DNA from: Halostella limicola
GTDB taxonomy: Archaea; Halobacteriota; Halobacteria; Halobacteriales; Natronoarchaeaceae
NCBI RefSeq assembly: GCF_003675875.1
Contig: NZ_RCDI01000002.1
Coordinates: forward strand, 250,786 to 314,785
DNA: 64,000 bases
Direction of reading: 5' to 3'
Shown here one piece after another: positions 4,335 through 46,537 of the stretch. The stretch's first letter is position 1. Each line of letters starts with the position of its first letter. Both the position numbers and the translations under genes were made by a program. The notes under the pieces are model-generated. The model was given only the letters and a program-made list of their open reading frames with translations. It ran no database searches and was not told where the DNA came from.

Positions 4335-5015
4335 GTGGGGGTTGAAATAAAGGAATCCCGCGTTACCGACGACGAGTTCGACGAGATGGCGGCGTTCGTC
4401 TTCGAGTATCTGGCTGCCAGCGTCGAGAACGAGGACGAAGGGGGTCGGATGCGGTGGTACCCCTGGCACTCCGCCGAGTACCGGCACAACCACATCCTCA
4501 ACGTCGTCGAGCTCGCCGAGGAGATCGCGGAGAAGGAGGGCGCCGACGTCGACGTCACCCGCGTCGCCGCACTGTTTCACGACATCGCCAAGCTGGACGC
4601 CGACCAGGAGGTCCACGCGGAGGAGGGCGCGCGCATCGCCCGCGAATACCTCGAGGCCCGGGACTACCCGCAGTCGTTCGTCGACGCCGTCTGCAAGTCG
4701 GTCGCCGAGCACTCCTACCAGGGCGACCTGACGGACCTCCCCCTCGAGACGCAGTGTCTCGTCGAGGCGGACCTGCTCGACAAGGTCGGCGCGAACGGGA
4801 CGGCGCTGATGCTCCTCCGGATGGGGTACGAGGCCCGCACGCACATGGACTCGGCCGAGATGGTCGAGCGCGTCCTCGAACGCGGCCGCGACGCCGCCGA
4901 CCGCGTCCGGAGCGACACCGCCGAGAGCATCGCCCACCGGCGCCTCAAGCGCGTGAAGTGGTTCCGCGAGTGGATCGCCGACGAGGTGTCGGCGATAGCG
5001 GACCCCGACTTCTAG
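4335..5015 (+). CDS. HD-domain metal-dependent phosphohydrolase
   Basis: A 226-residue protein of the HD superfamily. The expected ligands are present in order: H53 in YRHNHILNVVEL, HD at 82-83 (ALFHDIAKLD), H94 in EVHAEEGARIA, and the EHSYQGD segment near residue 130, followed by a conserved LVEADLLDKVGANGTALML region. Members hydrolyse nucleotides or cyclic nucleotides; the substrate cannot be told from sequence. The start is a GTG at 4335, chosen because no in-frame ATG precedes the conserved N-terminal helix. It diverges from alaX and its stop overlaps the end of the convergent LysE gene by four bases. Confidence 0.8.
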   Translation: MGVEIKESRVTDDEFDEMAAFVFEYLAASVENEDEGGRMRWYPWHSAEYRHNHILNVVELAEEIAEKEGADVDVTRVAALFHDIAKLDADQEVHAEEGARIAREYLEARDYPQSFVDAVCKSVAEHSYQGDLTDLPLETQCLVEADLLDKVGANGTALMLLRMGYEARTHMDSAEMVERVLERGRDAADRVRSDTAESIAHRRLKRVKWFREWIADEVSAIADPDF

Positions 5016-5686
5016 AGCAGGGTCCCGGCGGCGTCCGACAGGAACAGGACGCCGAACGCAGCCAACACCGCCGCGCTGGCGTACGCCACGGCCGGCGCGA
5101 ACGCGTCGATCCGGCGCCCGGCGCCGACGAGCGCCGCCGGGAACCCGACGATCCACAGCGCGATGCCGCCGAAGAAGCCGACGAGAAGCGCCGGGCTCCC
5201 CGTCTCGACCACGAACGCCCCCGCGAGCGCGTGGCCGACGTACGGGACGGAGGCGAACACGTCCAGCGTCCCCGGTTCCAGCAGCCCGACGCCGAGGGTG
5301 AGCCAGAAGACGATCTGGTAGGGGTTCGTCAGCGCGAGGACGAACGCCTTCCGGAACCCGCGGTCGTCGGCGACCTCGCCCTCTCCGGTGAAGCCGCTCG
5401 AAGCGTCCTCGTACGCGCCGTACGCGAAGTACAGCATCAGCAGGCCCCCGACGCCGACCATCGCCGCCTGGAGCGTCGGCAGCCGCTGGACGACCGCGAC
5501 CACGCCGAACAGCGCGAGCACGAAGAAGACGGCGTCGGCGGTCATCGCGCCGAGCCCCGCGAAAAAGCCCGAGCGCCAGCCCCGGATCACGCTCTCCTCG
5601 GCGATGATGGCGTTCATCGGTCCCGGCGGCGCGGCGAGCGCGAACCCGAACGCGACTCCCGCGACCGCCGACGTCAGCGTCGACAT
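5012..5686 (-). CDS. LysE/RhtB-type export permease
   Basis: A 224-residue integral membrane protein with about six hydrophobic segments. The N-terminal signature GFALAAPPGPMNAIIAEESV matches the LysE superfamily hallmark (G-x-x-x-x-x-x-PGP-x-x-x), as do GWRSGFFAGLGAMTAD and KAFVLALTNPYQIVFW. The family exports amino acids, quaternary compounds or metals. The ATG at 5686 was chosen over a TTG two codons upstream. It follows the GDT1 and SirR genes on the same strand after 79 bases, so metal or cation export is a reasonable guess, but no residue decides the substrate. Confidence 0.8.
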   Translation of the reverse strand: MSTLTSAVAGVAFGFALAAPPGPMNAIIAEESVIRGWRSGFFAGLGAMTADAVFFVLALFGVVAVVQRLPTLQAAMVGVGGLLMLYFAYGAYEDASSGFTGEGEVADDRGFRKAFVLALTNPYQIVFWLTLGVGLLEPGTLDVFASVPYVGHALAGAFVVETGSPALLVGFFGGIALWIVGFPAALVGAGRRIDAFAPAVAYASAAVLAAFGVLFLSDAAGTLL

Positions 5687-5765
5687 GGTCAACCCTCGCG
5701 GCCGATCCGTGAAAAATCGTCCGACAGGGGACGAACGCCGCGGTAGCGGAGCGGCGGTGCGACCC

Positions 5766-6410
5766 CTAGAGCGGGAGGATGGAGGTTCCGAGCGTCAGTT
5801 CGGCGACCACGTCGGCGGCGAACAGCAGGAACACCGCCGCGGAGAGCAGGTAGAGGTACCGCTTCACGTCGTACTCCTCCAGCACGTGGGCGAAGCGGTG
5901 GAAGCAGTACGCGTTCACCAGGCTCACCGGGACGATCGCGAGCATCTCGCCGACCCAGATCGCGGAGCCGGCGGCGTACTGGGCGGCCAGCCCGATGGTG
6001 ATGAGCTGGGTCTTGTCGCCGAACTCGCCGACCGCCATCACGGAGAAGGAGGGGACGAAGCCGGCCGCGCGGCCGTCGCCCGCCACCTCGACGTCGGCCA
6101 GCAGGCCGCCGTCGGCGACCATCGGGGCGTCCTTCTCCGGCAGCGAGTACAGCAGCATCCCCGCGAAGACGACGAACAGCACCGCCGTCGCGACGTCTAA
6201 GTACACACCCGGCAGCGCGCCTTGCAGCGCGCTCCCCAGCGCGATCTCGAGCATCGTCCACCCCGCGAACGCGCAGGCGGCGCCCGCGACGACGACCGCC
6301 GGCCGGTACTTCGTCGCGAGGCCGGCGATGACGAACTGCCCCTTCTCGCCGGGCAGCGCGAGCAGTTGCGCCGTGAACGCGATCGTGAGAACTTCGATCC
6401 AGCCCGTCAT
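5766..6410 (-). CDS. GDT1/TMEM165-family (UPF0016) cation transporter
   Basis: A 214-residue membrane protein with six predicted helices in two repeats, the length usual for UPF0016. Characterised relatives (MneA, Mnx, Gdt1) move Mn2+ or Ca2+. The second repeat has an intact GEFGDKTQL motif (E-x-G-D-K-T) in its first helix, whereas the equivalent site in the first repeat reads LPGEKGQF. Its start overlaps the stop of the DtxR-type regulator by four bases (ATGA), so the two are cotranscribed and presumably act together in manganese efflux. A long acidic loop (about 98-118) separates the halves. Confidence 0.85.
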   Translation of the reverse strand: MTGWIEVLTIAFTAQLLALPGEKGQFVIAGLATKYRPAVVVAGAACAFAGWTMLEIALGSALQGALPGVYLDVATAVLFVVFAGMLLYSLPEKDAPMVADGGLLADVEVAGDGRAAGFVPSFSVMAVGEFGDKTQLITIGLAAQYAAGSAIWVGEMLAIVPVSLVNAYCFHRFAHVLEEYDVKRYLYLLSAAVFLLFAADVVAELTLGTSILPL

Positions 6411-7096
6411 GCTTCTTCGACTAACCGGTCGTCGCCGTCCGCGGCGACCGTCACCCGGATCGACCGCGCCACCGTCTCCGGCAGGCTCTGCTCGTCGCCA
6501 CCGACGGCGACGGTGACCATGCCGAAGGGGGCGACGTCGGTCACCTCGATGACGGTGCCCGGCGCGATGCCGGCGTCCTGAAGGTAGGCGAGTTCGTCTG
6601 CGTCTCGGTCGCTCACGCGCTCGACGCGGACGCGGTCGCCCGCCGTGTGCTCGCTCAGGCGCGTCCCCGCGCCCTCGTCCGGCGGCGTCAGGTCGGCGCT
6701 CGGGATCGGGTCGCCGTGGGGGTCGACCTCGGGGTCGCCCAGCGCCTCCGCGACCCGGCGCTCGAACTCCTCGCTGATGTGGTGCTCCAGCGCGTCCGCC
6801 TCGTCGTGGACCTCGCTCCAGTCGTAGTCGAGGTGTTCGGTGAGGTACGCCTCCAGCAGGCGGTGGTGCCGGACGACCTCGACAGCGACCGTCTCCCCCT
6901 CGTCGGTCAGCTCGACGCCCTTGTACTTCTCGCGCTCGACGAGGCCGCGGTCCGCCAGGCTCTCGATCATGCTGGTGACCGTCGGCGAGGTCACGTCCAG
7001 ATACTCCGCGATCCGGGACGTCCCGACGGGCGCGCCGTCCTCCTGCTCGAGATAGTAGATAGCTTTCAGGTAGTCCTCCATCACGTCACTTAGCAT
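6407..7096 (-). CDS. DtxR/SirR-family metal-dependent regulator
   Basis: A 229-residue three-domain regulator. Residues 1-62 form the winged helix (MEDYLKAIYYLE, ISRIAEYLDVTSPTVTSM-like here as SRIAEYLDVTSPTVTSM). Residues 63-140 are the metal-binding dimerisation domain with RHHRLLEAYL and EADALEHHISEEFE, which supplies His and Glu ligands. Residues 150-222 form the FeoA/SH3-like domain. Such proteins bind Mn2+ or Fe2+ and repress metal genes. It is the first gene of a unit with the GDT1 transporter (four-base overlap), and a perfect 20-bp palindrome sits between its TATA box and start, so it very likely autoregulates. Confidence 0.9.
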   Translation of the reverse strand: MLSDVMEDYLKAIYYLEQEDGAPVGTSRIAEYLDVTSPTVTSMIESLADRGLVEREKYKGVELTDEGETVAVEVVRHHRLLEAYLTEHLDYDWSEVHDEADALEHHISEEFERRVAEALGDPEVDPHGDPIPSADLTPPDEGAGTRLSEHTAGDRVRVERVSDRDADELAYLQDAGIAPGTVIEVTDVAPFGMVTVAVGGDEQSLPETVARSIRVTVAADGDDRLVEEA

Positions 7097-7102
7097 CGAC
7101 TG

Positions 7103-7122
7103 GGATTAGACTAGTCTAATCC
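7103..7122. promoter_or_regulatory. perfect 20-bp palindrome, likely SirR/DtxR operator
   Basis: GGATTAGACTAGTCTAATCC is its own reverse complement. It begins seven bases upstream of the sirR-like ATG at 7096 and ends next to the TATA-like box, so a bound dimer would cover the transcription start. The TTAG-n-CTAA core resembles half-sites of DtxR/MntR/SirR operators. Metal-dependent autorepression is the inferred role. Confidence 0.8.
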
Positions 7123-7129
7123 TTATAGC
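7123..7129 (-). promoter_or_regulatory. TATA-like box of the SirR-GDT1 unit
   Basis: GCTATAAGG on the minus strand, about 27-33 bases upstream of the ATG at 7096 and directly abutting the palindrome. Confidence 0.55.
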
Positions 7130-7237
7130 TAGGGTGGCTAATTCAGAAGTGAGCGCTCGTCCAAAACACCTCGTCTCAAGTCGAACCAGGCGGGACGAGC
7201 GTGCAGAGAAGGCGGTCCTAACGAATGACTCCGAGGT

Positions 7238-45000: not shown

Positions 45001-46537
45001 GAAGGCGGCCAACCCCGAGGCCGACATCAACGTCAAGCTCGTCTCCGAGGCGGGCATCGGCACCATCGCGGCCGGCGTCGCGAAGGCCAACGCCGACGTG
45101 GTCCACATCTCGGGCCACTCCGGCGGCACCGGTGCGAGTCCCCGCACCTCCATCAAGAACGCCGGCCTCCCGTGGGAGCTCGGCCTCGCGGAGGCGAACC
45201 AGATGCTCGCCGAGACGGACCTTCGCGACCGCATCCGCGTCTCCGTCGACGGCGGCATGAAGACCGGCCGCGACGTGGCGGTCGGCGCGCTGCTCGGCGC
45301 GGAGGAGTACGTGTTCGGCACGGCGTCGCTCGTCACCAGCGGCTGCGTGATGGCCCGCCAGTGCCACAAGAACACCTGCCCCGTCGGCGTCGCCACCCAG
45401 CGCGAGGAGCTTCGCAACCGGTTCCCCGGCGAGCCCGAGCACGTCATCAACTACATGACGTTCATCGCGCAGGAGCTGCGGGAGATCATGGCCGAACTCG
45501 GCTTCGAGACGGTCGACGAGATGGTCGGCCGCGTCGACCTGCTCGCCCAGCGCGACGACGTCGACCACCCGAAGGCCCGCAACGTCGACCTCTCGGAAGT
45601 GCTCGCCGTGCCGAACGGCGACCAGCGCCGGAAGATCCGCGAGCAGACCCACGAGATCGACGAGCAGCTCGACCACGACCTGATCGAGGCCGCCGAGGCC
45701 GCGCTGGAGCGCGAGGAGCCGGTCGACGTCGTGACCGACGTGACGAACGCCGACCGCGCGGTCGGCGCGATGCTGTCGAACGAGGTGTCGTCGCGCCACG
45801 GCGTCGCCGGCCTCCCCGAGGACACCGTCAACGTCGACCTCCGGGGCACCGCCGGCCAGAGCTTCGGCGCGTTCCTCGCCGGCGGCGTCTCGCTGCACCT
45901 GACCGGGAGCGCCAACGACTACGTCGGCAAGGGCCTCTCCGGCGGCAAGCTCTCGGTGACGACGCCCGAGACCGCGAACTACGAGGCCGACGAGAACATC
46001 TGCATCGGCAACGTCGCGCTGTACGGCGCGACCGAGGGCGAGGCGTACGTCAACGGCGTCGCCGGCGAGCGCTTCGCCGTCCGCAACTCCGGCGTGAAAG
46101 CCGTCGTCGAGGGCGTCGGCGACCACGGCTGCGAGTACATGACCGGCGGCGCCGTCGCCGTACTCGGTGACACCGGGAAGAACTTCGCGGCCGGCATGTC
46201 CGGGGGCGTCGCGTACGTCCTCGACGAGTCCGGCGACTTCGAGTCGAAGGCGAACACCGGCATGGTGACGCTCTCCGACTCCCTGGAGGAGAAGGACCGC
46301 CGCATGCTGAAGCGCCTCGTCGAGAACCACGTCGCCTACACGGACAGCGAGAAGGGCAAGGAGGTGCTGGAGAACTGGGAGGAGTACCTCCCCCGGTTCG
46401 TGAAGGTGATGCCGGACGCGTACCACCGCGTCATCACCGAGGAGGGGGCCGAGGACGTCCGCGAGTCCCCGCCCGAACCCGCGACGGTCGGTGCGTCTGC
46501 CGAGTCGACCGGCTTCGCGGCGTCGTCCGACGACTGA
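42014..46537 (+). CDS. gltB: glutamate synthase large subunit (ferredoxin/NADPH type)
   Basis: A 1507-residue enzyme that converts glutamine and 2-oxoglutarate to two glutamates. An N-terminal Ntn amidotransferase begins at C24 (ERSNCGVGVVMDL), which must be exposed by removing a 23-residue leader. Next is the central domain, then the FMN/synthase barrel: SGHSGGTGASPRTSIKNAG and a 3Fe-4S motif with C1111, C1117 and C1122 (GCVMARQCHKNTCPVG). The C-terminal beta helix has GXGXG-like repeats (GGVSLHLTGSANDYVGKGLSGG, GGAVAVLGDTGKNF). No gltD small subunit follows, so ferredoxin may be the donor. It is the largest gene in the window. Confidence 0.95.
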   Translation: MKEPHTRPDRTEGLADPTDERSNCGVGVVMDLDDGTGHEVVADGLELLENLEHRGTTGAEESTGDGAGVLLQTPHEFFEGVLDASLPDTYAVGSMFFPRDDAAAAVLTDLVEETLVEYDLDVFAWRDVPTDNADLGATAVESEPDVRQCFVRPDGLDVDGFDRALYVARRALENRVEAESPDGAERFYVCSLDRETVVYKGLLKGDQVADYYPDLTDERVKSTFAMVHARFSTNTLGAWHLAHPYRNIIHNGEFNTIQGNINWMRARETDLVSETLGDDVETIKPVINDPEQSDTASVDNALELLMEDGRDLPHALRMLIPEAWRGDDAMDEDRRDWYDFHASLVEPWDGPALVAATDGERIGAVLDRNGLRPCRYDVTTDNTLVMASEAGALETDPEDIEERGRLKPGQIFLADPKEGRVIPDDEVFDDLVDERYGEWVDQEQVHLDDVADDREPRTSVEDLRAHQATYGYSRDELENLIEPMMKRGKDPVGSMGDDTPLSVLSDYNRPLFTYFKQLFAQVTNPPLDYIREELVTSLESRLGFQRNLLAESQDHARQLVLDSPVLTDAQTAAIRNVSANGISSKTVDVTYRPEKDLREAVEDVRDAAREAIEAGNDVIVLSDRAAGPDRVPIPSLLAMGAVHHHLVRNGLRNHAGIVVESGDPRAVHHLATLVGYGADAVNPYLAYQTIADVVAGEDGADVEDAVEAYVGALEDGLLKTMAKMGISTVESYQGAQIFEAVGLDDDFVAEYFEGTESRTGGIGIEEIEEDLEARHEAAFEGADIERVGEYEHRSDGIHHQWNPDTVGTLQQAVRQGDYDTYLDFAEKINDQGENLQTLRGLLEFAADERESIPVEDVEPIADVVERFSTAAMSLGSISPEAHENNSIAMNRIGGKSNTGEGGEPPERFGTEKECNVKQVASGRFGVTSAYLSSADELQIKMAQGSKPGEGGHLPGMKVNEMIAHVRHATPGVGLISPPPLHDIYSIEDLKQLIHDLKAANPEADINVKLVSEAGIGTIAAGVAKANADVVHISGHSGGTGASPRTSIKNAGLPWELGLAEANQMLAETDLRDRIRVSVDGGMKTGRDVAVGALLGAEEYVFGTASLVTSGCVMARQCHKNTCPVGVATQREELRNRFPGEPEHVINYMTFIAQELREIMAELGFETVDEMVGRVDLLAQRDDVDHPKARNVDLSEVLAVPNGDQRRKIREQTHEIDEQLDHDLIEAAEAALEREEPVDVVTDVTNADRAVGAMLSNEVSSRHGVAGLPEDTVNVDLRGTAGQSFGAFLAGGVSLHLTGSANDYVGKGLSGGKLSVTTPETANYEADENICIGNVALYGATEGEAYVNGVAGERFAVRNSGVKAVVEGVGDHGCEYMTGGAVAVLGDTGKNFAAGMSGGVAYVLDESGDFESKANTGMVTLSDSLEEKDRRMLKRLVENHVAYTDSEKGKEVLENWEEYLPRFVKVMPDAYHRVITEEGAEDVRESPPEPATVGASAESTGFAASSDD

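Follow-up and report, generated by a model that had tools for sequence, protein, structure and literature searches.

A 64,000-nucleotide stretch of the Halostella limicola genome (contig NZ_RCDI01000002.1, forward-strand positions 250,786 to 314,785; hereafter the window, numbered from its first letter) carries a gene for a metalloregulator, sirR, that overlaps a gene for a GDT1 (UPF0016) transporter and is preceded by a perfect palindrome. On the minus strand, the genes run in the order sirR, GDT1, LysE. The first two genes and their promoter are laid out as follows.

6407-7096, minus strand: sirR, DtxR/MntR-type metalloregulator with a FeoA domain, 229 amino acids (Pfam)
5766-6410, minus strand: GDT1 (UPF0016) transporter, 214 amino acids (Pfam)
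6407-6410, minus strand: four-base ATGA overlap of the sirR stop and the GDT1 start (sequence)
7103-7122, both strands: perfect 20-bp palindrome GGATTAGACTAGTCTAATCC, six bases ahead of the sirR start codon
7106-7119: conserved 14-bp core of the predicted operator, TTAGACTAGTCTAA; family consensus TTAGACNNGTCTAA
7121-7129, minus strand: TATA-box-like element GCTATAAGG, abutting the predicted operator, with GCTATAA at 7129-7123

The sirR promoter and its conserved core

SirR contains an N-terminal DtxR domain (PF01325, 69 bits against a cut-off of 26), a metal-binding/dimerisation domain (PF02742, 101.9 bits against 27) and a FeoA domain, each above its Pfam cut-off, and the helix-turn-helix together with the metal-binding/dimerisation domain places it in the DtxR/MntR family. 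GDT1 matches PF01169 (102.6 bits against 27) in two stretches, as expected of a two-repeat family. A first-pass annotation of this DNA had described the regulator and the transporter as overlapping by four bases, which was confirmed, and the same overlap (an offset of -3) recurs in 25 of the 53 regulator-GDT1 loci described below.

The 20-bp palindrome is single-copy: with up to three mismatches allowed, the 4.1-Mb genome holds no further match. Its length was dropped as evidence, as two perfect palindromes of at least 20 bp were observed in the window against a mean of 0.43 in 30 first-order Markov copies. The second of them, CGCCGACCGCGCGGTCGGCG (45748-45767), is G+C-rich. The 14-mer was not enriched genome-wide at up to three mismatches either (12 hits, with 25 for its reversed version). 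Since neither the length nor the genome-wide count exceeds chance, the significance of the core was decided by comparison among relatives, where near-perfect matches in promoters, rather than genome-wide 14-mer counts, carry the signal.

A regulator homologue was found in 145 of the 146 genomes of the order. The matches listed number at least 149 after a duplicate (G041:C18) was dropped, and they come from 137 of the 145 matching genomes. The 149 loci read comprise 30, the paralogue of the window's regulator, which was added from a separate search, and a further 118; all regulator counts given here are among these listed matches. Within 120 bp of the regulator start, the core was present with 0, 1, 2 and 3 mismatches in 17, 53, 30 and 10 loci, respectively. 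At up to two mismatches it was therefore found in 100 of the 149 promoters, compared to 0.4 in Markov shuffles. As further negative controls, the stretch 250-370 bp upstream, the gene interior and the reversed sequence gave no match at this threshold in the 149 loci. In the 100 matching loci the core lies at roughly -20 to -30 relative to the start codon, and the aligned promoters show the consensus AAATTTAAGG immediately followed by TTTAGACGCGTCTAA (TTTAGAC...), which is a TATA box and then the operator.

The usual archaeal spacing from TATA box to start puts the expected start of the sirR transcript at about 7100, and the transcript that follows the operator is probably leaderless. The palindrome had been said to cover the transcription start; its promoter location was right, but it occupies the gap between the TATA-like box and the expected start and is not exactly atop the start. 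An operator behind the TATA box is in the position of a repressor site. The conservation of the core across regulator loci supports the palindrome as the likely operator of the regulator, as had been proposed. The sirR promoter bears a conserved site that resembles an operator, as expected of the manganese-dependent autorepressor SirR of haloarchaea. A 20-bp operator was an overstatement, since what the loci share is the 14-bp core, without the flanking base pairs that complete the 20-mer.

Genes that share the core

The regulator and GDT1 are paired in 53 of the 149 loci. The list of GDT1 genes, after the duplicate G041:C18 and most second halves of split hits were removed, has 104 entries, of which 52 are away from any listed regulator; 46 of these were examined. 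The core lies within 200 bp upstream of 37 of the 46, compared to 0.2 in composition shuffles. Among the best 80 named GDT1 loci, which overlap the unnamed set so that some genomes are in both, the core precedes all 32 regulator-linked genes and 35 of the 48 unlinked ones. Because unlinked GDT1 genes also carry the core, GDT1 is, by sequence comparison, a member of the SirR unit, in line with the first-pass annotation. In Halobacterium salinarum DSM 3754, a regulator 66% identical to SirR is likewise paired with GDT1, and the core there has two mismatches. Short open reading frames of 9-43 codons were seen between the operator and unlinked GDT1 genes (L053-L078, L262-L281); a few begin with MLS like SirR, and in 24 of 29 such loci the frame ends in the four-base ATGA overlap with GDT1. 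It is possible that these are remnants of sirR retained for translational coupling.

The genome-wide motif search that the first-pass annotation had suggested showed the 20-mer to be unique and found two perfect cores (with any two middle bases), one in the sirR promoter and one at C2:908528. The latter lies directly behind a TATA-like box with a multicopper oxidase (MCO) gene and a ZIP-like gene downstream, so that the two promoters have the same layout of TATA-like box, operator and start. The unit had been called self-contained, which is contradicted by this second perfect core at the head of the MCO/ZIP-like operon. The ZIP-like protein scored 19.4 bits against the Pfam Zip cut-off of 35.1 and so falls outside that family by this measure; it matched the ZupT model with an E-value of 2.4e-8, far under the cut-off of that model, and among PDB chains the best E-value was 9.8e-5, while a chain named BbZIP matched the same region at 0.024. 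By sequence, this protein is only a remote ZupT/ZIP relative.

A stricter 15-mer search found sites in 43 of the 146 genomes, with 4 control hits in total. In the 30 loci returned, the readable sites precede, as judged by eye, genes for SirR, GDT1, ZnuA/MntC-type binding proteins, a ZIP-like protein, a multicopper oxidase and ArsP_2; four representatives were checked with Pfam. ArsP_2 also stands behind a SirR-type regulator in six loci (L045, L189, L194, L196, L198, L199), one of which has the core. Other sites in the H. limicola genome resemble the core. TTAGGC-type palindromes occur at G000:C4:22701, C5:68953 and C5:76603 (L014-L016), and both C5 sites adjoin genes that by eye resemble those for an iron-type binding protein of an ATP-binding cassette (ABC) transporter and a flavin oxidoreductase; perhaps these sites serve another, iron-type DtxR regulator. 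The sequence TTAGACTCTTCTAA at G000:C3:813580-813593 (L007) has one mismatch to the core and lies, by eye, ahead of ArsR-like and methyltransferase-like genes, and it may be the ArsR's own site.

Partner genes and the GDT1 motifs

Behind the regulator in the 149 loci, we found GDT1 in 53, LysE alone in 21, a ZIP-like gene in 21 (7 with MCO), an ABC binding-protein gene in 8, ArsP_2 in 6 and none of these in 40. The core at up to two mismatches accompanies 48, 14, 19, 6, 1 and 12 of these, respectively. On the regulator tree, built with FastTree, the partner label changes 28 times compared to 81.5 times in shuffles, so the label changes often; the tree has many open forks and was used solely for these changes and for the placement of the SirR paralogue.

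The exchange of partners is clearest in one family of 19 genomes, f7. A ZIP-like gene lies behind sirR in 11 of them, none of which has GDT1, and the order sirR, ZIP-like gene and a conserved next gene holds in 10 of the 11 (the next gene went undetected in G099). In the 8 genomes without a ZIP-like gene behind sirR, the same next gene follows at 102-321 nt (7 genomes) or 1882 nt (1 genome). Seven of these 8 genomes, in two lineages, carry GDT1 at another locus together with a core of 1-2 mismatches. GDT1 is present in 99 of the 146 genomes when its divergent TFGDKGQ type is counted in; both GDT1 and a ZIP-like gene are present in 12 genomes, GDT1 only in 87, the ZIP-like gene only in 23 and neither in 24 (a negative association with p 2.8e-6, which, like the other presence/absence p-values given here, is inflated by relatedness). 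GDT1 also had a weak negative association with ZnuA-type genes (p 0.017). NRAMP, ZnuA-type and ZIP-like genes are all missing from 13 near-complete genomes, and 12 of these have GDT1; the completeness filter for this test was typed by hand from printed tables and keeps 122 genomes.

According to the passages of PMC7380456 on this family, UPF0016 proteins are defined by one or two copies of the motif E-phi-G-D-(R/K)-(S/T), and the manganese exporter MneA requires E19, E116, D22, D119, K23 and T121. The window GDT1 fits this definition with one copy, as its second motif is canonical (E129-F-G-D132-K-T134-Q, with EFGDKT at 129-134) and its first is degenerate (L19-P-G-E22-K23-G24-Q). It therefore shares PF01169 and the second motif EFGDKT with MneA and the bacterial UPF0016 proteins, but where MneA-type exporters have an intact first motif, ExGDK(S/T), the haloarchaeal protein has LPGEKGQ, with L19 and E22 in place of Glu and Asp and G24 in place of Ser or Thr. 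LPGEK is the usual form of the first motif among the haloarchaeal frames examined: of 99 GDT1 frames, 91 are of the LPGEK type, 7 of the TFGDKGQ type and 1 is a fragment with the second motif only. The best 80 named GDT1 proteins all have LPGEK(V/G/A)Q, a count that is biased because the set was fetched with patterns built from the GDT1 motifs. Elsewhere in the phylum, GDT1 has two canonical motifs in 25 of 28 loci, while the pattern matched none in the other 3, and a DtxR relative of SirR was near none of the 28 within the stretch examined. Because MneA depends on E19 and D22, among other residues of its motifs, the lost Glu and the conservative Asp-to-Glu change in one half of the protein should alter its ion handling, judging by sequence. 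Rfam searches found no manganese riboswitch before GDT1 in the window or in 19 loci (18 of them non-haloarchaeal). An AlphaFold2 model of GDT1 (pLDDT 86.7) had no PDB match at an E-value of 0.001 or better, and sequence and profile searches gave no solved relative.

The LysE-type exporter gene that follows on the same strand is described by two further features.

5012-5686, minus strand: LysE-type exporter gene (Pfam), with its ATG at 5686, 79 nt past GDT1
5707-5718, minus strand: T-rich box GATTTTTCACGG ahead of LysE (by eye, unscored)

The first-pass annotation had suggested that LysE may belong to the unit. LysE is a tempting third cistron, as it is a frequent neighbour of sirR even without GDT1 (27 loci have GDT1-LysE behind the regulator, in addition to the 21 with LysE alone). 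There are 80 unlinked LysE genes that are not behind GDT1, and 20 of these were drawn at random; none had the core even with three mismatches allowed. By eye, TTTTTCACGG or a similar T-rich box precedes LysE both in the window and at many other LysE genes, linked and unlinked alike, and it is possibly LysE's own promoter element. LysE was set aside on account of the missing cores and this box; membership in the unit is unlikely, and LysE is probably a separate transcription unit with its own promoter.

Metal, control and transport direction

The putative metal ligands of SirR are D8, H78, E82, H97, D101, E104 and H105. Six of these positions are invariant in the 149 loci, and position 101 holds D in 140 loci and E in the other 9. 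Met10 and Cys102 are among the metal-ligand residues of IdeR, and alignment to PDB relatives showed that their counterparts in SirR are Asp8 and Asp101. An Asp/Asp pair gives the hard-ligand set of manganese regulators. The best NCBIfam model was MntR (NF047407), with 222.2 bits against a cut-off of 350, so SirR falls short of the manganese-specific MntR proper. A SirR paralogue in the same genome (G000:C3:1056947-1057612, L082) is 59% identical and falls in a tree clade without the core; a ZnuA-type binding-protein gene (C3:1054040-1054774) lies about 2 kb from it. A third, short DtxR-type protein (142 amino acids; G000:C3:246230-246415, L004) is encoded just past a ferritin-like open reading frame, as judged by eye. 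In Halobacterium, deletion of sirR led to more mRNA of zurA/zurM/ycdH, which encode manganese/iron ABC uptake, in the presence of manganese, according to the part of PMC1779511 on this mutant, and a passage of PMC3600143 names SirR a Mn(II)-dependent autorepressor. We infer that this sirR is the counterpart of the gene in the window. The manganese-dependent control predicted by the first-pass annotation is thus plausible from the Asp/Asp pair and the published Halobacterium SirR, and manganese is probably the main metal.

We propose that sirR-GDT1 would be a bicistronic, autoregulated metal-homeostasis unit. SirR would take up a divalent metal, most likely Mn2+, through its Asp/Glu/His ligands, and the metal-loaded dimer would bind TTAGAC-N2-GTCTAA between the TATA box and the start and block initiation. 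Plentiful metal would thereby silence sirR itself as well as GDT1, which overlaps it; under metal shortage, SirR would leave the operator and GDT1 would be made. The four-base overlap would couple the translation of the two genes. The MCO/ZIP-like operon would be under the same operator in the same placement. As a whole, the proposal of a manganese-responsive autorepressor that shuts off sirR-GDT1 at high metal is, on the sequence evidence, the account that we moderately favour, and an importer-type regulation of GDT1 is quite likely. GDT1 would be manganese-repressed, which the H. salinarum DSM 3754 pair strengthens if its regulator is the published sirR. Inward transport by haloarchaeal GDT1 is suggested only tentatively.

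The regulator and its operator are of a known kind, that is, DtxR-family control of manganese transport. SirR resembles the Halobacterium SirR as a DtxR-family repressor with autoregulation and manganese-transport targets, and it shares the domain plan and a palindromic operator with IdeR/DtxR, from which it differs by Asp8 and Asp101 in place of the IdeR Met and Cys. Bacillus MntR, too, is a DtxR-family protein with which this domain plan and palindromic operator can be compared. Short MntR chains lack the FeoA domain that SirR has, and unlike the MntR and IdeR systems, the window unit has a haloarchaeal operator and an archaeal TATA promoter. For the Halobacterium SirR, the passages in PMC3600143 and PMC1779511 name zurA/zurM/ycdH as the target and leave GDT1 unmentioned. 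The statement in PMC7380456, citing Leyn and Rodionov 2015, is that four halobacterial UPF0016 genes are under manganese-dependent control; the regulator given there is the two-component system ManS/ManR, unlike the DtxR-type SirR here. The link between a regulator and UPF0016 genes in halobacteria had therefore been put forward before, in connection with archaeal DtxR-family regulons.

Several observations weigh against the proposal. In 39 of the 149 regulator promoters there are at least four mismatches to the core, and only 39 of the 100 promoters with the core have an A/T run of at least 6 within about 20 bp upstream of it. Unlinked GDT1 genes without a good core (more than two mismatches) number 9 of the 46 and 13 of the 48, and of the seven f7 genomes that show the swap, two (L143, L151) have lost the core before sirR itself (five mismatches). 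The 12 genomes with both GDT1 and a ZIP-like gene include H. limicola itself, and the alternation of the two is confounded by relatedness, with about two independent swaps in f7 and p 0.01 outside this family. Significance was reached neither for the negative association of GDT1 with NRAMP (p 0.15) nor for the excess of GDT1 where all three importer families are missing (p 0.18). The ZIP assignment is weak as well, at 19-21 bits in Pfam where the cut-off is 35. The paralogue that lacks a core in its promoter shares all the metal ligands of SirR, and because of this the ligands are no proof of manganese. ArsP_2, annotated as a 10TM heavy-metal exporter family, has the core in two genomes (L207, L214), and therefore the SirR regulon does not consist of importers only. 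By eye, the operator lies upstream of the TATA-like box before the ABC binding-protein genes L203, L204, L208 and L221, so that SirR could activate some promoters, or there could be a second site.

GDT1 might instead be an exporter as in bacteria, with the opposite sign of control (apo-SirR represses and metal releases it, or SirR both represses and activates), so that GDT1 rises with metal. Most of the bacterial UPF0016 genes screened are under a manganese riboswitch and are regarded as manganese exporters, and mneA is induced by manganese (PMC7380456). The same review calls the transport directions of the family highly speculative. A dual activator/repressor role is described for at least one regulator of the SirR family in the relevant part of the Inferelator paper, and the shared operator of ArsP_2 and the site upstream of the TATA-like box at some ABC genes also fit an exporter. 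In contrast to the riboswitch of bacterial genes, the window GDT1 has a DtxR-type operator with importer-type geometry, which it shares with the MCO/ZIP-like operon; GDT1 occupies the slot of ZIP-like genes, and the Halobacterium SirR is described as a manganese-dependent autorepressor (PMC3600143). We consider an exporter under inverted control rather unlikely.

A response to Fe2+, or to iron and manganese alike, in place of Mn2+ is improbable. Haloferax and Halobacterium papers, in the pertinent passages, place SirR among the iron regulators, DtxR relatives sense iron, and the ligands of the paralogue are identical; however, the Asp/Asp pair at the IdeR Met10/Cys102 positions, the MntR model as the best NCBIfam match (below its cut-off) and the manganese-specific reports on the Halobacterium SirR, as worded in parts of PMC3600143 and PMC1779511, argue for manganese. 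The three TTAGGC-type sites, two of them beside iron/redox-like genes, may serve an iron regulator instead. The palindrome itself could be a chance occurrence, an element similar to a terminator or a site for some other protein, and its length, which is not rare per window, and the unenriched 14-mer would allow this; a core at a fixed position in 100 of 149 promoters, against 0-0.4 in controls, and ahead of separated GDT1 genes as well makes it extremely improbable.

We return to manganese-dependent repression of an uptake-type unit as the favoured reading. The degenerate first motif, the core on separated GDT1 genes and the alternation of ZIP-like and GDT1 genes were described in none of the sources that a literature search reached, in the parts of them that it covered, a search that was limited and so is no proof of novelty. 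What is new is the contrast, in that a family treated as bacterial export machinery appears to be wired like an uptake gene here; also new are the trading of places between GDT1 and ZIP-like genes and the altered first substrate motif in nearly all haloarchaeal members read. Haloarchaeal GDT1 may be an importer branch of the TMEM165/GDT1 family, in which the first motif changed from E-x-G-D-K-S/T to L-P-G-E-K-G/V and which displaces ZIP-like, NRAMP or ABC manganese uptake under one SirR operator; we put this forward as a possibility that could well prove wrong. Genetically tractable haloarchaea, in some of which GDT1 is the sole recognised candidate among the four families searched, allow the direction of transport and the function of the motif to be tested directly. 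If the idea is true, some members of the GDT1 family would export and others import, and a single motif would visibly set them apart.

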